Source of the DNA: Anaeromassilibacillus sp. An172
GTDB lineage: Bacteria; Bacillota; Clostridia; Oscillospirales; Acutalibacteraceae
Reading direction: 5' to 3'
Assembly: GCF_002160515.1 (NCBI RefSeq)
Contig: NZ_NFKS01000008.1
Location: 1 to 64,000, forward strand
DNA: 64,000 nt
Positions within the stretch are counted from its first letter, which is position 1. Every line of letters begins with the position of its first letter. The notes under the pieces were generated by a model. The model saw only the letters and a list, made by a program, of their open reading frames with translations, made no database searches and was not told the origin of the DNA. The translations under genes and the position numbers were made by a program. Below are positions 40,980 to 48,187 of this stretch, piece by piece.

Positions 40980-41240
40980 ATGCCAAACATTAAATCAGCA
41001 AAGAAGCGTGTAAAGGTTATCGCAACTAAGACAGCTCAGAATAAGGCTATCAAATCTGCTTTGAAAACAGCAGTTAAGAAGGCGTACATTGCTATTGATA
41101 CAAACGCTGACAACAAGGCTGAGGCAGTTAGTCTTGCTGTTAAGAAGATTGATCAGGCTGCAGCAAAGGGTATCATGCACAAGAACACAGCTGCAAGAAG
41201 CAAGTCTGCTCTCGCTAAGAGACTCAATGCTTCCGCATAA
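40980..41240 (+). CDS. rpsT: 30S ribosomal protein S20
   Basis: The 86-residue, lysine-rich protein starts [12 protein letters not shown] and ends [18 protein letters not shown], matching S20 throughout. It binds 16S rRNA early in 30S assembly. The ATG follows AAGGAGGTG. Codon use is biased toward major codons, as expected. Confidence 0.97.
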
Positions 41241-41262
41241 TAGCAAATACGAAATTAACGCT

Positions 41263-41296
41263 AAAAGCAGAGCCACACGCCCTGCTTTTTTTGTTT
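41263..41296 (+). terminator. rpsT terminator
   Basis: AAAAGCAG and CTGCTTTT arms, then a long T-rich run. Confidence 0.85.
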
Positions 41297-41388
41297 TTTT
41301 ATTGACTTTTTATAAAAAAAGTTTTATTATTATAACAGAGAATTTTGTGTTCTTTTTTATTTAAAATTTAGAAAACGGAGGGTTTCAA

Positions 41389-41541
41389 ATGAGCAAGAAC
41401 GGAAAATTGGGATTGATTATCGGAGTTATCTCTGCAGTTGCCGCTGTTACAGCCGCAATTACAGCATTTCTGATTGTCAGAGAAAAGAAAAAGAGAGATG
41501 AGGAAGAGCTTGACCGTTATCTGGACTGCTCTATCCAATGA
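41389..41541 (+). CDS. Small membrane protein (50 residues)
   Basis: The ATG lies eight bases after ACGGAGGG and encodes one transmembrane helix (about 7-27, GLIIGVISAVAAVTAAITAFLIV) with a charged cytoplasmic tail (REKKKRDEEELDRYL). I do not recognise the family. A repeat cluster begins right after the stop. Confidence 0.72.
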   Translation: MSKNGKLGLIIGVISAVAAVTAAITAFLIVREKKKRDEEELDRYLDCSIQ

Positions 41542-41544
41542 TTT

Positions 41545-41826
41545 TTGGTTCCGACGTGCAAAGGTTTTTCTATGAAATCAACTTCTGCACACGTCGGGTG
41601 AGACGTTTTCTTTAATATGTTAGAATGGCTCACTCTATCAAGGGTGAGCTTTTTTATTTCCGCTATGCCTAAGTTTTAATTAACGGTAAGGTTCAGCACT
41701 CGGCGGCGAGTTTTTTAGTTCCGACGTGCAAAGGTTTTTCTATGAAATCAGCTGCTGCACACGTCGGACGAGACGTTTTCTTTAATATGTTAGAATGGCT
41801 CACTCTTAAATAGGGTGGGCTTTTTA
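41545..41826 (+). repeat. Intergenic hairpin repeat cluster 8 (tandem ACGTG-type copies)
   Basis: Two nearly identical A-B units lie 170 bases apart: CCGACGTG 41551-41558 pairing with CACGTCGG 41590-41597, and 41721-41728 with 41760-41767. The loops differ at only two or three bases. Each is followed by GAGACGTTTTCTTTAATATGTTAG and a GGCTCACTCT...AGGGTGAGC hairpin with T-run, that is, a B tail that works as a terminator. A remnant (TTTCCGCTATGCC...CACTCGGCGGCGAG) lies between them. Confidence 0.88.
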
Positions 41827-41978
41827 ATTTTAAAAGTGAATCCATACAATGATAGTTCTATAAAAGAATAATAGAGTGGTAAACCGATGTTGTGTTATAA
41901 CCTTCAATAAAAAATATATCCCCCTTAACGTAATTTGCATATCATGTATTGAGCCATAGTTTGTAAAGGAGGGTGTCT

Positions 41979-42539
41979 ATGACGGTTGAACAGATAGACA
42001 GCTCAAAGGTGCTGATTTCTCTATGCAACGAGGATTTAACGGAATATTCTCTGCGGTTTGACACCATGAGTTTTAACGACCCGCATTCAAGAAGAATACT
42101 CAACAAGCTTTTAACTATAGCCTGCGGAAAAACAGGCATAAAACAGGAAAAGGACAAATCTATGCTGGTGGAGGCTATGCCCCACAGCAACGGCTGTCTT
42201 ATCCTTTTGACCATGAATCACAAAAAGAAAAAAAGAACCGTATACCGCATAAAAAAGAACTCTTCCGGCTGGTGCTGTCGCTTTAAAAACGCCGAGGACT
42301 TTTTATGCTCATTGGAAAAGCTTTCCGAGAAAAAGGAAACATTATACCGTGTGTCAGCTTATCTTTTCGGTGAAAGCTATTATATGTTTATTGAACAGTC
42401 AAAACTGCCGGAAAAAACCACGGAAATTTTAAGCGAGTTCGGAAGACTGAGAAAAAGAGAACTGCTTTTTTCCAAAAGACTTTCCGAGGGCGGCAAGCTC
42501 TTGTTTTTTAAACCAAAATTTACAGGCAACCTTTGGTAA
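41979..42539 (+). CDS. mecA: MecA family adaptor protein
   Basis: The 186-residue protein begins MTVEQIDSSKVLISLCNEDL and has a short N-terminal substrate-binding region and a C-terminal ClpC-binding domain, as in MecA/YpbH. MecA delivers substrates to the ClpCP protease and assembles ClpC. The ATG lies after AAAGGAGGG. The ctsR-mcsA-mcsB operon at 62.9 kb supplies the regulatory side of the same proteolysis machinery. Confidence 0.82.
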   Translation: MTVEQIDSSKVLISLCNEDLTEYSLRFDTMSFNDPHSRRILNKLLTIACGKTGIKQEKDKSMLVEAMPHSNGCLILLTMNHKKKKRTVYRIKKNSSGWCCRFKNAEDFLCSLEKLSEKKETLYRVSAYLFGESYYMFIEQSKLPEKTTEILSEFGRLRKRELLFSKRLSEGGKLLFFKPKFTGNLW

Positions 42540-42575
42540 AAATGATAATTATTATTGTTTTATTCAACTATCCTG

Positions 42576-42604
42576 TTGACAACAGCAATCCAAGGTAGTA
42601 TAAT
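42576..42604 (+). promoter_or_regulatory. Consensus sigma-A promoter of the hydrogenase-maturation leader
   Basis: TTGACA (42576-42581), 17 bases, TATAAT (42599-42604): both hexamers match the consensus. The predicted transcript start falls at the first bases of the structured RNA. Confidence 0.88.
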
Positions 42605-42609
42605 TTAAT

Positions 42610-42739
42610 AAACGCAGAATCTCGATGGTGTTTCGGAGAGCTTGTGCCTGAAAAATATTAAATCTGCTGACAATAAGGGTTAGCCCGAGTTAAAAGCCGA
42701 GGATTTGCACAGGAATAGTGTACCTGTATATATGCGTTT
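42610..42739 (+). ncRNA. Structured leader RNA of unknown class upstream of the TM1266-hydE-hydG genes
   Basis: The 130-base element is closed by AAACGCA (42610-42616) pairing with TGCGTTT (42733-42739). Inside are CTTGTGC 42641-42647 pairing with GCACAGG 42707-42713, extended by AAATC/GATTT; a local hairpin TCTC...GAGA (42620-42639); and GCTGAC/GTTAGC (about 42665-42683). A terminator follows at once, before the first gene. This layout (strong promoter, closed aptamer-like fold, terminator, gene) is that of a riboswitch, although an independent small RNA cannot be excluded. It matches none of the classes I can recall. Confidence 0.6.
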
Positions 42740-42743
42740 TGGC

Positions 42744-42780
42744 TCCCGTATACCCTTTTGGTGTACGGGACTTTTTATTT
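42744..42780 (+). terminator. Terminator/expression platform after the leader RNA
   Basis: CCCGTATACCC (42745-42755) pairs with GGTGTACGGG (42760-42769) over TTTT, then CTTTTTATTTT. Confidence 0.88.
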
Positions 42781-42808
42781 TATAATTGTTTTGCGGATAG
42801 GAAAAGCG

Positions 42809-43087
42809 GTGATTAAAATAGACAGATTGGCTCAGATAGGAATAATAATTCAGGATATCACAGCGGCGGACAGGGTAAACGATATACTCCACGACTATTC
42901 CTCATATATTGTGGGAAGAATGGGACTGCCCTACAAAAAATACGGCGTTATGGTGATAAGCATAATTATTGACGCTCCGGTGGAGATAATAAGTGCATTG
43001 ACAGGCAAGCTGGGAATGATTAAAAACGTAACCGCAAAGTCTGTTATGTCTAAACTTGATATACCAACACTGTCGGAGGAAAAATGA
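42809..43087 (+). CDS. TM1266-type iron-only hydrogenase system regulator
   Basis: The 92-residue protein has an ACT-like/NikR C-terminal-like fold pattern (QIGIIIQDITAADRVNDIL and GVMVISIIIDAPVEIISALTGKLGMI). TM1266 family members accompany [FeFe]-hydrogenase maturation genes as putative regulators. The chosen start is a GTG after AGGAAAA. Its stop overlaps the hydE start (ATGA), so it is coupled. It is first in the hydE-hydG operon. Confidence 0.8.
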   Translation: MIKIDRLAQIGIIIQDITAADRVNDILHDYSSYIVGRMGLPYKKYGVMVISIIIDAPVEIISALTGKLGMIKNVTAKSVMSKLDIPTLSEEK

Positions 43088-44151
43088 AAGACATCAGACT
43101 GATTGAAAATTTAAAAAATACCATAATTTCACTAGATAAGGGTGAAATGCCGGAAGTATCCGACCTGGTGCTTCTCCTTGAAAATTACAGAGAGCCGGAA
43201 ATATTCGGTTTTGCCAGAGATTTGGGCAGAGAAAAAGCCTTGGAAAATTACGGCAACAATGTGTTTATCAGAGGACTTATAGAGGTTTCAAACTACTGTA
43301 CCAAAAACTGTTTTTACTGCGGAATACGCTGCGGCAATAAGGAAGCTCAAAGATACAGACTGGATTTTGAGGATATTATGAACTGCTGTGAAAGCGGCTA
43401 CAATGCAGGCTTTCGCACCTTTGTAATGCAGGGCGGCGAGGACCCGGTTTTTAACGACGATTTTGTGTGCCGAACCGTTGCCGCAATTAAAAATAAATAT
43501 CCCGACTGCGCAGTGACCCTTTCCCTGGGAGAGAGAAGCTACAGCTCCTATAAGCTGCTGAAAGAGGCAGGCGCAGACAGATATCTTTTAAGGCACGAAA
43601 CAGCCACAAAGGAGCATTACGAAAAGCTTCATCCCAAAAGCTCATCCTTTGAAAACAGAATGGAATGTCTTTATTATTTGAAAGAGCTGGGATATCAGAC
43701 AGGCGCAGGATTTATGGTGGGTTCGCCTTGGCAGACTATGGAAAATCTTGCAAACGACCTGATATTTTTAAAGGGATTTCAGCCCCACATGGTTGGCATA
43801 GGGCCTTTCCTTCCCCACAGTCAGACACCTTTCAGAGATTTTCCAAAGGGAAGCGCAGAACTCACCCTGTTTATTTTAAGCCTTGTGAGAATTATGCTGC
43901 CTAAGGTTTTGCTTCCTGCCACTACAGCCCTGGGAACAAGAGAAGAGGGCGGCAGAGAAAGAGGAATTCTCCACGGTGCAAATGTTATTATGCCTAACCT
44001 TTCACCGGTTGAGGTGAGAAAAAAATATATGCTGTACGACAACAAGCTGTCAAGCGGAGCGGAAGCCTCTGAGGGCTTGGAAATTTTGAGAAAATCCCTT
44101 GAGAAAATAGGATATGAAATCCCTGTATCAAGGGGAGATTGTTTAAAATAA
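43084..44151 (+). CDS. hydE: [FeFe] hydrogenase H-cluster radical SAM maturase HydE
   Basis: The 355-residue enzyme has a radical SAM cluster motif with C72, C76 and C79 (YCTKNCFYCG), followed by a BATS-like C-terminal region. HydE contributes to the dithiomethylamine bridge and the diiron precursor of the H-cluster. It overlaps TM1266 and lies 19 bases ahead of hydG. Confidence 0.93.
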   Translation: MKDIRLIENLKNTIISLDKGEMPEVSDLVLLLENYREPEIFGFARDLGREKALENYGNNVFIRGLIEVSNYCTKNCFYCGIRCGNKEAQRYRLDFEDIMNCCESGYNAGFRTFVMQGGEDPVFNDDFVCRTVAAIKNKYPDCAVTLSLGERSYSSYKLLKEAGADRYLLRHETATKEHYEKLHPKSSSFENRMECLYYLKELGYQTGAGFMVGSPWQTMENLANDLIFLKGFQPHMVGIGPFLPHSQTPFRDFPKGSAELTLFILSLVRIMLPKVLLPATTALGTREEGGRERGILHGANVIMPNLSPVEVRKKYMLYDNKLSSGAEASEGLEILRKSLEKIGYEIPVSRGDCLK

Positions 44152-44170
44152 AGATAAAGGAGATAAAGTT

Positions 44171-45589
44171 ATGTACGACGTAAAATCACCAAAGGCTGAA
44201 GAATTTATCAGCCACGAGGAAATACTTGATACACTTAAATATGCAGAGGAAAACAAGCACAACGCCCAGCTTATAGATGAGATTTTGGCAAAGGCTGCAC
44301 TTAGAAAAGGCCTTTCCCACAGAGAAGCCGCAGTTTTGCTTGAGTGCGATATACCAGAGAAAAACGAGCTTATTTTTGCATTGGCAAAGGAGATAAAGCA
44401 GGAATTTTACGGCAACAGAATTGTTATGTTCGCTCCCCTTTATCTTTCCAACTACTGTGTAAACGGCTGTCTTTACTGCCCTTACCACTACAAAAACAAG
44501 CACATTGCAAGAAAGAAGCTTACCCAGGAGGAAATCGTAAAAGAGGTTGTGGCTTTGCAGGATATGGGTCACAAAAGACTTGCCCTTGAAGCAGGCGAAG
44601 ACCCTGTAAACAATCCTATTGAATACATTCTTGACTGTATCAAGACTATTTACAGCATCAAGCACAAAAACGGCGCAATCAGACGTGTTAACGTAAACAT
44701 TGCCGCAACAACTGTTGAAAACTACAGAAAGCTTAAAGAAGCCGGCATTGGCACATATATTCTTTTCCAGGAAACATACCACAAGGAAAATTACGAAATG
44801 CTCCACCCAACAGGCCCTAAGCACAACTATGCATACCACACAGAGGCTATGGACAGAGCTATGGACGGCGGTATCGACGACGTAGGTCTCGGCGTTCTTT
44901 TCGGACTTAACCTTTACAGATACGACTTTGTAGGACTTTTGATGCACGCTGAACACTTGGAAGCTGCAAAAGGCGTAGGCCCTCACACAATCAGCGTTCC
45001 ACGTGTATGTAAGGCTGACGACATTGACCCTGAAGCTTTTGACAACGGTATCGACGATGATACATTTGCAAAGATTGTTGCATGTATCAGAATTTCCGTT
45101 CCATACACAGGAATGATTATCTCCACAAGAGAAAGCCCGAAATGCAGAGAGAGAGTATTGGAGCTTGGTATTTCTCAGATAAGCGGCGGTTCAAGAACCA
45201 GCGTTGGCGGTTACGCCGAGGAAGAGCCTGAGGAGGAAAACTCCGCTCAGTTCGACGTTTCCGACAGAAGAACTCTCGACCAGGTTGTAAACTGGCTTAT
45301 GAAGCTGGGTCATATTCCGAGCTTCTGCACAGCCTGCTACAGAGAGGGCAGAACCGGCGACAGATTTATGAGCCTTGTTAAGAGCGGTCAGATTGCAAAC
45401 TGCTGTCAGCCAAACGCTTTGATGACCTTGAAAGAATACCTTGAGGACTATGCTTCTGAGGAGACAAAGAAAAACGGCGAAGCTCTTATTGCCAAAGAGA
45501 TAAATAACATTCCAAAGGAAAAAGTAAAAGACATAGTAAAACAGCACCTTATCGAAATCGAACAAGGTCAAAGAGATTTCCGCCTTTAA
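44171..45589 (+). CDS. hydG: [FeFe] hydrogenase H-cluster radical SAM maturase HydG
   Basis: The 472-residue tyrosine lyase makes CO and cyanide for the H-cluster. It has a radical SAM motif with C96, C100 and C103 (YCVNGCLYCPYHYKN), and the second, C-terminal cluster site in CTACYREGRTGDRF with the CCQPNA stretch. The ATG follows AAGGAG. A 600-base repeat cluster separates it from hydF. No hydrogenase structural gene (hydA) is present in the window. Confidence 0.95.
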   Translation: MYDVKSPKAEEFISHEEILDTLKYAEENKHNAQLIDEILAKAALRKGLSHREAAVLLECDIPEKNELIFALAKEIKQEFYGNRIVMFAPLYLSNYCVNGCLYCPYHYKNKHIARKKLTQEEIVKEVVALQDMGHKRLALEAGEDPVNNPIEYILDCIKTIYSIKHKNGAIRRVNVNIAATTVENYRKLKEAGIGTYILFQETYHKENYEMLHPTGPKHNYAYHTEAMDRAMDGGIDDVGLGVLFGLNLYRYDFVGLLMHAEHLEAAKGVGPHTISVPRVCKADDIDPEAFDNGIDDDTFAKIVACIRISVPYTGMIISTRESPKCRERVLELGISQISGGSRTSVGGYAEEEPEEENSAQFDVSDRRTLDQVVNWLMKLGHIPSFCTACYREGRTGDRFMSLVKSGQIANCCQPNALMTLKEYLEDYASEETKKNGEALIAKEINNIPKEKVKDIVKQHLIEIEQGQRDFRL

Positions 45590-46170
45590 TTTATATCCGA
45601 CCTGCAAAGGTCGGATATAAAAATTAACTTCCGTTTCAGGTCGGGCGAAACGTTTTTTATTTCTGCCTTGCAGAACTTTGTTTTAGAAATAAACGTCATT
45701 ACAAGACGGGCGAAACGTTATGTTGGGTGACTGGGAGTGGCTCGCTCTCATTTGGATTGGCATTTTATTTATGCTCGACCAAACATTTGATAATTCTAAA
45801 AAGAAAACCCTAACCGTAGGGGCGGATATGTTAATTCGCCTCTACGACGAATAATTCTATAAAAGAAAATTAAAAACAAAGTTAAATGAGAGCGAACCAT
45901 TCCGAAGACTGCGGAAAAGGTCTCGCCCGGCGGAAAACAGAAGTTTATTTTTATGTGTGGGTTAAGCCGCCGGATAGAAAAAAATCGCCCGACCTGTGCA
46001 GGCGTTGATTTATTAAATAAACCTTTGCAGGTCGGATAGAAAAAAATCGCCCGACGGAAAACGGAAGCTGATTTTTAGCAGGAAGTGAAGCCGTCGGACA
46101 AGAAAAAAGCAAAGTTTAAACCGCCGCATGGCGGAGGTTTTCAAATAGATGAACCTTTCCAAGGCGGAGC
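45590..46170. repeat. Intergenic hairpin repeat cluster 9 (most stem variants, both orientations)
   Basis: It fills the hydG-hydF gap. On plus: CCGACCTG 45597-45604 with CAGGTCGG 45637-45644, and a decayed copy CTGCCTTG 45663-45670 with CAAGACGG 45702-45709. E elements (CGTAGGGGCGGATATG...CGCCTCTACG) lie near 45814-45850. On minus: CCGGCGG 45927-45933 with CCGCCGG 45967-45973; CCGACCTG 45989-45996 with CAGGTCGG 46028-46035; CCGACGG 46051-46057 with CCGTCGG 46091-46097; and a short CCGCC/GGCGG hairpin near 46121. It shows the widest range of covarying arms in the window. Confidence 0.88.
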
Positions 46171-46194
46171 TAAAAAATAGAGGTGAATTTAAAA

Positions 46195-47415
46195 ATGGGA
46201 TTGAATAATACACCTAATGCCGATAGAGTTCATATAGGTATATTCGGCAGAAGAAATGCGGGAAAATCAAGCGTTATAAATGCGGTTACTGGACAGAACC
46301 TAGCCATTGTTTCCGAAGTTTTGGGAACAACAACCGACCCGGTCTATAAGGCTATGGAAATTCTACCTTTAGGCCCTGTTGTGCTTATAGATACCCCGGG
46401 ACTTGACGACGTGGGAGAACTGGGCGAGCTGAGAGTTCAAAAGGCTTTTCAGGTGCTCAATAAAACAGATATCGCATTGCTGATTTTAGATGTAAACAGC
46501 GGCTTTTCAAAGGAAGAAGAAAAGCTTTTAGAGCTTGTAAAGGCAAAAAATATCCCCTTTGTGGCAGTGCTCAATAAAACAGATATAGCCAAAGAGGATA
46601 AAATAAAGGAATTTGAAAAGCTTTTAAAGGATAAATATAATATTGAAAATGTGGTTTCAGTGAGCGCAGAGAAAAAAGACGGTATTTTTGAACTGAAAGA
46701 AAAAATAGCTTCACTGAATACAGAAAAGGAGAAGTCACCTATAATTTCAGATTTAGTCTGTCCGGGAGAAACAGCGGTGCTGGTTGTGCCTATAGACGAG
46801 TCTGCGCCTAAAGGCAGACTTATTCTGCCGCAGCAGCAGACTATAAGGGACTTGCTTGATAACAACGCTATGGCGGCGGTTACTCAGGTTACAACCTTGG
46901 CAAAAGCCCTTGAAAGCTTTAAAGAGCCTCCAAAGATTGTTGTAACAGACAGTCAGGCTTTTAAAGAGGTTGCAAAAATCGTTCCGGAGAACGTTCCACT
47001 CACATCATTTTCAATTCTTTTTGCACGCCATAAGGGAGAGCTTTCAACCCTCGTAAATGGCGTAAAGGCTATGGATAATCTTAAGGACGGGGATACCGTT
47101 CTTATTTCCGAGGGATGCACACATCATAGACAGTGCAACGATATCGGAAGTGTTAAAATCCCCAATGCGGTGAGAAAATACACTGGAAAAAATCTCAATT
47201 TTGAGTTTACCTCAGGGGGAGAATTTCCACTTGATTTAAGCAAATACAGCCTTATTATCCACTGCGGCGGATGTATGCTCAACGAAAGAGAAATGAAATA
47301 TAGAATAGCCTGCGCAAACGATGCAGGTATTCCTATGGTGAATTACGGAGTGCTTTTGGCTCAGGTAAACGGAATTTTAAAGAGAAGCCTTGAGCCGGTG
47401 GAAAAGGATATTTGA
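46195..47415 (+). CDS. hydF: [FeFe] hydrogenase H-cluster maturation GTPase HydF
   Basis: The 406-residue scaffold protein has a Ras-like GTPase domain (P-loop GRRNAGKSS near residue 21, DTPGLDD, NKTD), a dimerisation middle domain, and the C-terminal Fe-S cluster site made of CTHH and HCGGC. HydF assembles and carries the H-cluster precursor to HydA. The ATG lies nine bases after AGAGGTG. It has its own position after the repeat cluster, so it may have its own promoter; none is clear. Confidence 0.93.
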   Translation: MGLNNTPNADRVHIGIFGRRNAGKSSVINAVTGQNLAIVSEVLGTTTDPVYKAMEILPLGPVVLIDTPGLDDVGELGELRVQKAFQVLNKTDIALLILDVNSGFSKEEEKLLELVKAKNIPFVAVLNKTDIAKEDKIKEFEKLLKDKYNIENVVSVSAEKKDGIFELKEKIASLNTEKEKSPIISDLVCPGETAVLVVPIDESAPKGRLILPQQQTIRDLLDNNAMAAVTQVTTLAKALESFKEPPKIVVTDSQAFKEVAKIVPENVPLTSFSILFARHKGELSTLVNGVKAMDNLKDGDTVLISEGCTHHRQCNDIGSVKIPNAVRKYTGKNLNFEFTSGGEFPLDLSKYSLIIHCGGCMLNEREMKYRIACANDAGIPMVNYGVLLAQVNGILKRSLEPVEKDI

Positions 47416-47452
47416 TTAACAGAAAATTACCATACACGTTATCCTATAAAAT

Positions 47453-47489
47453 AAACCGTTACCGGCAGTTAATCTGCCGGTAACGGTTT
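47453..47489. terminator. Bidirectional terminator between hydF and the DUF6062 gene
   Basis: Perfect arms around CCGTTACCGGCAG and CTGCCGGTAACGG, with A-rich and T-rich flanks. Confidence 0.88.
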
Positions 47490-47491
47490 GT

Positions 47492-48187
47492 TTATTTTGT
47501 TTGGAAATCCATGGGGCCGTTTAAAAAGACTGCGCTTCGTTCTATGGAGTCTTTGGAATTTTTAAAATCTCCTCCGGCGTTTCGGTAATCAAACATACTG
47601 CAAAAATGGGTGACGTCTCCTTTAAGCTCTTTTAAATGGTTCAGAGTTATTCTTTTTGTCACCTCAGCAAATTCCAGAAAATCTTTTTTGCCAAGAATAT
47701 CTCCGGCAGTTTTTATCATGGCTGAATAGTGCTCAAGACAGAAAAAAGGCTGGGCGGAATAAAGCTTTTTAAAGCTCTCATCTTTTACAAAAAGCTTTGC
47801 GGTGGTTTCCATAGCTCTTTGTAAATCCTCGGAAACATTTTGGCAGATAAAACAGGAATGGAAAAGCTTTTCACACTGGGCGGCTTCCCCTTTGATTTTT
47901 TTCACGTTTTCCTCTTCTTTAAAACAGTTGTCAATAATGTACTGCAAGTGACTTTCCAAAATAAGTGCGTTTGAAAGCCTTCCCCCTATTTCAAACATAA
48001 GCTGCAAATGATGCTTGCAAAAGCCTGTTTTATTTGTTTCAATTCTCACAGTAGGCTCCATTTTGGCGTCGCCGGTTATGTAGCGGGCGTAGCTTTCCTC
48101 CAGCTTTTTCTCAAGACGGCAGAAAGGACAGCCATCCTTTTCAATAAATACGTCGGTTACAGGAATTGTGCATATTGTCTGTTTCAT
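47492..48187 (-). CDS. DUF6062 family protein
   Basis: The 231-residue soluble protein has four Cys motifs: CPFC near residue 18, GFCKHH, CFIC and FFCLEHY. The spacing of Cys-His pairs looks like repeated metal-binding sites, possibly redox or zinc. The family is frequent in Clostridia and has no known role. The ATG (MKQTICTIPV) is six bases after AAGGGTG. It ends at a shared terminator. Confidence 0.75.
   Translation of the reverse strand: MKQTICTIPVTDVFIEKDGCPFCRLEKKLEESYARYITGDAKMEPTVRIETNKTGFCKHHLQLMFEIGGRLSNALILESHLQYIIDNCFKEEENVKKIKGEAAQCEKLFHSCFICQNVSEDLQRAMETTAKLFVKDESFKKLYSAQPFFCLEHYSAMIKTAGDILGKKDFLEFAEVTKRITLNHLKELKGDVTHFCSMFDYRNAGGDFKNSKDSIERSAVFLNGPMDFQTK

Follow-up and report, generated by a model that had tools for sequence, protein, structure and literature searches.

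A conserved leader hairpin proposed as a new attenuator class for [FeFe]-hydrogenase maturation genes in Clostridia

The DNA considered here, referred to below as the window, is a stretch of 64,000 nucleotides from Anaeromassilibacillus sp. An172 (contig NZ_NFKS01000008.1, positions 1 to 64,000 of the forward strand). It contains a leader followed by the genes of a TM1266 family protein and of the [FeFe]-hydrogenase maturation proteins HydE, HydG and, 0.6 kb downstream of hydG, HydF (Table 1). The succession TM1266-hydE-hydG behind the leader had been named in an earlier note made from the sequence alone, and matches to TIGR03959, TIGR03956 and TIGR03955 agree with it. The first of these products gave 105.8 bits with TIGR03959 (cut-off 60.8) and 102.8 bits with PF21699 (cut-off 27), and its annotation is that of a putative regulator only. 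The gene upstream of the promoter (41973-42539) encodes a MecA-like adaptor (PF05389). Two tandem hairpin units, 86% identical over 118 bases and 170 apart, are situated at 41542-41829, flanked by a small ribosomal-protein-like gene on one side and a MecA-like gene on the other, and consist of CCGACGTG...CACGTCGG arms and then a terminator. Diverged CCGACCTGCAAAGGTCGG / GCCCGAC units, which by eye have the look of dispersed repeats, occupy the hydG-hydF interval (45595-46110).

Table 1. Predicted features of the leader and the genes downstream of it (positions within the window)
Feature	Position	Strand	Basis
Predicted sigma-70 type promoter, TTGACA-17-TATAAT	42576..42604	+	consensus match
Predicted 5' accessory hairpin, CUC/GAG with flanking GA/GA loop	42614..42647	+	RNAalifold on two sequences
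P1 5' strand of core, UAAAUCUGC	42659..42667	+	
Conserved core hairpin	42666..42697	+	descriptor; covariance-model match, 32.4 bits
Core 3' half, also 5' strand of predicted antiterminator	42684..42697	+	truncated-transcript folds
Variable hairpin between core and terminator	42709..42727	+	folds
Predicted antiterminator 3' strand GCGUUUUGGCUCCCG, overlapping terminator 5' arm	42734..42748	+	truncated-transcript folds
Predicted intrinsic terminator, 11 pairs, then T-rich tail	42744..42770	+	
TM1266 family protein, candidate RNA-binding regulator	42809..43087	+	TIGR03959/PF21699; GTG start chosen by reading
hydE, [FeFe] hydrogenase maturase	43084..44151	+	TIGR03956
hydG, [FeFe] hydrogenase maturase	44171..45589	+	TIGR03955
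hydF, [FeFe] hydrogenase maturation GTPase	46183..47415	+	TIGR03918

The perfect promoter and the clean terminator described in the earlier note are both present, as consensus predictions: the former matches in 12 of 12 positions and is the sole match of this quality within the 5.2 kb scanned, and the latter is followed directly on its 3' side by CTTTTTATTT. The -35 box is included in a perfect 13-base palindrome, CTGTTGACAACAG (42573-42585), which is kept in the congener. This palindrome gave 15 genome matches at no more than one mismatch, corresponding to 13 sites, when it was examined as a possible operator: 11 of the 12 other sites are situated within open reading frames, one of the 12 (L011) having the appearance of an intergenic promoter, and therefore no regulon is supported.

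The leader element is present in a single copy in its own genome. Without the terminator it folds no better than its shuffles (z -0.36), and with the terminator z reaches -2.47, so that folding alone is no sufficient case for structure. The earlier note had proposed a 130-base structured RNA closed by a seven-pair helix. That helix is absent from the minimum-energy fold of the window and appears in the centroid only; its counterpart strands in the sole congener are mismatched by eye, and it was dropped. What is left of the proposal is the leader itself, the closed 130-base domain being given up, and the conserved part is the 32-base core hairpin.

A DNA search of 98 genomes gave matches in the own genome, the congener and three others; the matches L004-L006 fell within coding sequence and were taken as chance. 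The leader of the congener (L003) occupies the corresponding position and is 88% identical over 105 bases, and an exact scan of the genome contigs for the core returned one record. When the window and the congener are compared alone, most positions are identical and in no pair have both bases changed. The 5' accessory hairpin is common to both and may possibly be a degenerate partner of the core; the variable hairpin is not the same in the congener. Covariance model R1, built from these two sequences, found matches in 24 of 398 family genomes at E <=1. Of the nine weak loci inspected (L023-L031), two, L023 (E 9e-4) and L029 (E 0.18), proved to be true leaders and seven have the look of chance matches; a further locus, L033, is situated by coordinates 132 bases before a TM1266 gene. 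Since L023 and L029 are placed directly upstream of TM1266-hydE, the regions upstream of TM1266 were collected, 148 in all: the own one, that of the congener and 146 from among the TM1266 matches listed, with G213, G420, G015 and G112 omitted. Six of the 148 were shortened by contig ends, one of them to 76 bases, and an empty region was counted as a miss.

The core of the window reads, segment by segment, GC, UGA, CAAU, AA, GGG, UUAG, CCC, GA, GUUA, AAA and GC, and the general plan of the motif is C-UGA / P2 / RA / P3 / GA / P2' / RRA-G, a hairpin with two purine-rich internal loops. Of P1, whose 5' strand is given in Table 1, the family consensus covers the last two bases only. A descriptor of this plan (C-UGA, P2 of 2-6 pairs, RA, P3 of 2-5 pairs, loop, P3', GA or GC, P2', RRA and G) reached a score of at least 18.2 in 92 of the 148 regions and in 2 of the 148 after shuffling. 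The sequence of P2 is free and its pairing is kept (CGCC/GGCG, CCGC/GCGG, TTCA/TGAA, TATG/CATA, CAC/GTG), the UGA, RA, GA and RRA loops being constant while P2 varies. Tandem hairpins were found in 13 of the 92 regions, a count that includes some doubtful pairs, for example in L116, L120, L185, L077, L062, L144, L165 and L179, and in some of the tandem loci the second copy is nearer the terminator; such copies suggest a dimeric binder or cooperative switching.

From the 92 descriptor matches, 76 passed length and loop filters, and after removal of L105, L106, L079, L139, L050 and L052 by hand the 70 cores of alignment A4 were obtained. In these cores 86.6% of the cells are paired, compared with 64.5 +/- 1.1 after shuffling and with none of 500 shuffles equal to it, and the covariation score amounts to 0.641 against 0.230 in shuffled and 0.06-0.19 in slid alignments; covariation is seen in both P2 and P3. 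Three of five covariation measures were above all 500 shuffles. The other two are the ones resistant to relatedness: further pair types were equalled by 3 of 500 shuffles, and 365 of 500 equalled the number of pairs in which both sides change (7 of 8), a measure which is saturated because seven of the eight pairs already vary. In the class set (alignment A6, 36 matches in 35 loci that had been pre-sorted as true by context and fitted to the model) pairing was 92.4% compared with 68.9% in shuffles and the covariation score 0.704 compared with 0.258; three measures again exceeded all shuffles, and no excess was seen in pairs with changes on both sides (146 of 500 shuffles equal) or in further pair types (325 of 500). 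Because the descriptor itself rewards pairing, the test was repeated with sequence as the sole criterion for picking the sites. In register, 41 of 126 regions then formed all three P2 pairs; the slid controls gave 4 to 10 of 126. When all site pairs were counted, slide 0 gave 101 of 869 and slide +1 gave 103 of 869, the other slides giving 39-54; the twin peaks arise since a match to the RRA pattern may be displaced by one base. All P values in this work are nominal, the sequences being related and not independent.

The 70 cores were used for covariance model R2, in which 68 rows come from the TM1266 list and the others are the own and congener sequences; built from leaders upstream of TM1266, it therefore favours the TM1266 context in searches. 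The window core, itself one of the 70 sequences, gives the only good R2 match in 41000-47500, and no good match was found before the hydF gene of the window. In the family, R2 matched 97 of 398 genomes at E <=0.05, in 105 rows. In 67 of these rows TM1266 follows 40-700 bases downstream, and they were accepted by coordinates. The other 38 comprise 17 before TM1266, eight before hydE, three before hydF, four before hydG, one before a NifH-family gene (L224), four false matches (G099, G170, G212 and G409) and one uncertain match (G131); G213 and G001 were accepted by position before TM1266, and the remaining rows were read. In the class, R2 matched 44 of 283 genomes in 46 rows, of which 37 genomes, belonging to 24 families, are true and seven (G527, G588, G602, G604, G609, G637 and G652) false, as is one row of G439; class contexts were read, the own row being the window and G539 being accepted by coordinates. 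Acceptance leaned partly on adjacency to TM1266 or hyd genes: a match was called false, by eye, when the fetched stretch had no hyd or TM1266 gene or when it fell within a reading frame, G604 being an exception that was called false with TM1266 7.3 kb downstream. Genes in the relatives were identified by tblastn with the window proteins, and by Pfam or NCBIfam for eight proteins.

The conservation upstream of hyd genes, on which the earlier note had beforehand made its reading depend, proved to be extensive. Homologues of the hairpin are found upstream of TM1266, hydE, hydF, hydG and operons in which an aspartate ammonia-lyase gene, aspA, precedes hydF (L381). The hairpin stands before genes other than hyd genes as well. 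In three genomes (L246, L256 and L369, the last in G524) the hairpin and a TM1266 homologue precede sulfonate/NMT1-type ABC transporter genes. In L229 (170-1360) the hairpin is followed by a TM1266 homologue and then by a NifH-family gene; a second protein of this locus looked by eye like a nitrogenase-like partner, a reading for which Pfam gave no confirmation. In L224 (G367:C1:60700-63400) the hairpin precedes a NifH-family gene without a TM1266 homologue, and a nitrogenase component-1 type protein is also present.

The position of the hairpin in relation to the terminator points to a switch. A terminator follows the core in 91 of the 92 regions and in 8 of 92 with the downstream sequence shuffled. 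Thirteen bases from RRA on can pair with the 5' arm of the terminator in the same leader, the mean energy of this duplex being -8.66 kcal/mol, compared with -6.38 +/- 0.23 kcal/mol when the terminators were swapped and -3.95 kcal/mol for other sequence segments. Ranked among such segments by its fit to the own terminator, the core strand falls within the best 5% in 37% of leaders only, and within the best 10% in 49%; in our leader the duplex has -9.0 kcal/mol and rank 0.084, and in the congener -6.6 and 0.22. It is this complementarity, specific to the own terminator, that supports an antitermination architecture, in line with the riboswitch or attenuator proposed in the earlier note. In transcripts ending before the 3' arm of the terminator, the expected pairing of the 5' arm with the 3' half of the core is 5.58 bases, compared with 3.50 when the core half is shuffled; of 91 leaders, 66 have real pairing above shuffled (Wilcoxon P 3e-9 for related sequences). 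In the RNA of the window reaching 42757-42762 the computed probability of the core hairpin falls to 1-6%, and that of the antiterminator is 0.81-0.97 at five of six positions tested; in the folds of truncated transcripts the finished terminator reverses the antiterminator. In G344, no antiterminator pairing was found for the upstream one of two hairpins (0.0). In seven loci (L232, L233, L234, L322, L324, L328 and L376) the hairpin is placed directly before hydG, and its 3' strand enters the Shine-Dalgarno sequence, e.g. AAAGGUGG.

Since the 3' strand of the hairpin has its complement in the terminator's 5' arm, hairpin and antiterminator should exclude each other, and from this competition it follows that a factor holding the hairpin would favour termination. 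As the hairpin enters the Shine-Dalgarno sequence of hydG, the bound state should again be OFF there. The locus has the marks of an attenuator, namely a leader close to the promoter in which a terminator precedes the regulated gene (predicted sites) and a predicted alternative antiterminator specific to the same leader, together with the mark of a riboswitch, a conserved covarying structure in several gene contexts. It may be concluded that the leader is almost certainly a new structured regulatory leader and that the hairpin represents a new class of attenuators in front of [FeFe]-hydrogenase maturation genes; a hairpin/antiterminator/terminator switch in which bound means OFF, a direction read from the anatomy of the leader, is in our opinion probable.

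As for the binder, the TM1266 protein deserves the first consideration. The window protein has 92 residues, compared with 80-90 residues in the family, and its predicted structure (pLDDT 88) resembles Thermotoga maritima TM1266 (PDB 2NZC; E 4e-9 by sequence, Z 15.5 by fold). The next fold match is the C-terminal sensor domain of NikR (Z 11-13), TM1266 residues from 1-6 on aligning to NikR from 49-64 on; no closer RNA-binding fold came up, which speaks neither for nor against RNA binding. By the structure alignment, no NikR-type ribbon-helix-helix DNA-binding domain is present in the 92 residues, nor is there room for one. Against TM1266 as the binder stands that small ligands are what NikR-like and ACT-like domains usually bind; the Arg and Lys residues conserved in TM1266 could serve RNA or a small ligand.

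TM1266 and the hairpin occur together. The protein was found in 194 of 398 family genomes and in 95 of the 97 with an R2 match; the two without it (G212 and G409) are among the four rejected matches, and after rejections the count becomes 93 of 93, one of them (G131) uncertain. At the class level TM1266 is present in 39 of 44 R2 genomes, compared with 175 of 283 overall; four of the five exceptions look false and the fifth, G449, is cut by a contig end, which gives 36 of 37 after rejections. The raw co-occurrence counts are safer than the sorted ones, since gene context entered into the sorting. The hairpin before hydG in G449 is convincing, and its assembly is without TM1266, the contig edge falling inside hydF; in its congener G701 TM1266 comes just after hydF.

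The reverse comparison was made with genomes lacking TM1266. HydG was over the cut-off in 6 of 80 tested out of 204 TM1266-negative family genomes, two of the six belonging to one genus and one being 59% complete. No convincing hairpin was found in these six with laxer R2 filters (best E 0.088), the five lax matches having no hyd gene within about 1.5 kb on either side, and with filters off there was no R2 match above 10 bits near HydG. The contrast of 0 of 6 with 93 of 194 has a Fisher P of 0.031, or 0.062 without the incomplete genome, both nominal because the genomes are related. HydF is near HydG in five of the six loci. The hairpin in turn was seen by R2 in only 93 of 194 TM1266-positive genomes, with a further 10 of 34 retested with laxer filters, and TM1266 genes close behind hydF in L056 and L119 are without it. 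The co-occurrence of TM1266 with HydEFG means that the association of the hairpin could reflect the pathway and not binding.

The TM1266 gene is usually the first behind the hairpin. A sensor without a DNA-binding part, encoded by the first gene and co-occurring with the element, resembles what would be expected of an RNA-binding attenuation protein. We give about an even chance to TM1266 being the binder of the hairpin, and the same, neither more nor less, to its being a new family of RNA-binding attenuation proteins in which a NikR-type sensor reads the two-internal-loop hairpin across Clostridia, through attenuation as well as through blocking of the Shine-Dalgarno sequence, and links H-cluster assembly, together with the NifH-family reductases and sulfonate-type transporters of paralogous operons, to a metal or cofactor signal. 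The pattern in the genomes favours the TM1266 protein at least as much as the candidate ligands named in the earlier note.

The explanation that we prefer overall, with the scales tipped slightly in its favour, is a new attenuator class with TM1266 as the putative binder. The core hairpin would compete with an antiterminator in which its 3' strand pairs with the terminator's 5' arm. When held, it would block the antiterminator, the terminator would form and TM1266-hydE-hydG would be turned off; when free, it would give way to the antiterminator and allow readthrough by RNA polymerase. In the copies of the hydG type the bound hairpin would block the Shine-Dalgarno sequence, with the same OFF outcome. 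TM1266 would hold the hairpin as a PyrR-like RNA-binding attenuation protein and would repress the H-cluster maturation genes together with its own gene on a metal, metabolite or cofactor-assembly signal.

The chief rival, a small-molecule riboswitch, in which a plentiful ligand related to H-cluster assembly, bound by a single hairpin or by tandem copies, would shut the maturation genes off and TM1266 would be merely a member of the operon, seems to us rather unlikely, as does the part of ligand for iron, the HydG/HydE product, tyrosine, cysteine or SAM. Terminator and Shine-Dalgarno platforms, conserved loops and tandem copies are usual for riboswitches, and all of them are seen here, the two purine-rich internal loops being strongly conserved and some of the tandem copies doubtful. 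The core, however, is small for a metabolite aptamer: it consists of one irregular hairpin, some 32 bases long, without a junction and with no visible pseudoknot. The hairpin with TM1266 also stands before NifH-family and ABC-transporter genes, and the six HydG-positive genomes without TM1266 show no convincing hairpin. Tandem riboswitches are well documented (PMC9481103).

Another protein dependent on the pathway, e.g. HydF or a different RNA-binding protein, might bind the hairpin, with TM1266 as an unrelated partner. A small hairpin interrupted by internal loops is a typical binding site for a protein, and HydF, HydE and HydG are all encoded behind the element. This reading is nevertheless improbable, as the hairpin precedes non-hyd genes too and the six genomes with HydG and without TM1266, five of them with HydF near HydG, have no convincing copy of it. 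The least probable view by far, that the region is only a promoter and a strong terminator, or encodes an independent small RNA, and plays no regulatory part for the genes behind it, agrees with the terminator, which would end a free-standing RNA, and with the two-sequence comparison, but is largely refuted because the same hairpin is conserved in several gene contexts, before hydE, hydF, hydG, aspA and TM1266 in many families, sometimes enters the Shine-Dalgarno sequence and is complementary to its own terminator.

The presence of the hairpin before all three maturases makes both the regulation of their supply and the role of TM1266 testable. If TM1266 binds, a new protein-RNA regulatory pair derived from a metal-sensor fold will have been found, and if a metabolite binds, a new riboswitch class for H-cluster assembly; either outcome would provide a handle on hydrogen production by Clostridia.

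The earlier note had matched the RNA to no known class, and the Rfam 15 search of the window likewise gave no family at the gathering cut-off. Rfam returned one tRNA only for 20 TM1266 loci of relatives, and sub-threshold matches only for 12 typical members; L144 with RF00166 (sRNA), at 27.4 bits against 44 and E 0.0019, was taken as chance. The single 6S RNA (RF00013) match of the genome is on another contig, and an identity of the leader with 6S RNA was rejected. The open-access literature searched contained no description of this RNA, no link to RNA for TM1266, 2NZC or the putative-regulator name, and no account of how HydE/HydF/HydG supply is matched to [FeFe]-hydrogenase demand. The matching passages of PMC9481103, PMC11109978, PMC3543383, PMC5640608 and PMC3091704 do not describe this RNA, and neither PMC8632094 nor PMC7266159 contains the terms hydrogenase, hydE, hydG or nitrogenase.

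Among known systems, the best weak Rfam match is L10_leader (RF00557; 23.6 bits against a gathering score of 44), which was rejected; it has GCCGAGG and a terminator in common with the window leader, which differs in its structure and has no ribosomal-protein genes behind it. With the riboswitches of Rfam the element shares the leader position, covarying helices, both expression platforms and, in some genomes, tandem copies, but no family reaches its cut-off and the core here is a single irregular hairpin. The T. maritima protein 2NZC, a homologue of the window protein, was deposited as uncharacterised. With NikR, TM1266 has in common the fold of the C-terminal sensor domain, but not the ribbon-helix-helix DNA-binding part. 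In attenuation of the PyrR, TRAP and LicT types the gene of the regulator is often within its own operon. The present leader resembles these systems in having a small putative protein site and a hairpin, an antiterminator and a terminator that are mutually exclusive; it differs from them in its RNA motif and in a NikR/ACT-like regulator, which is a candidate binder. Attenuators and riboswitches are known kinds of regulation, this RNA class is absent from Rfam 15, and, if TM1266 is the binder, the TM1266-RNA pair is also new.
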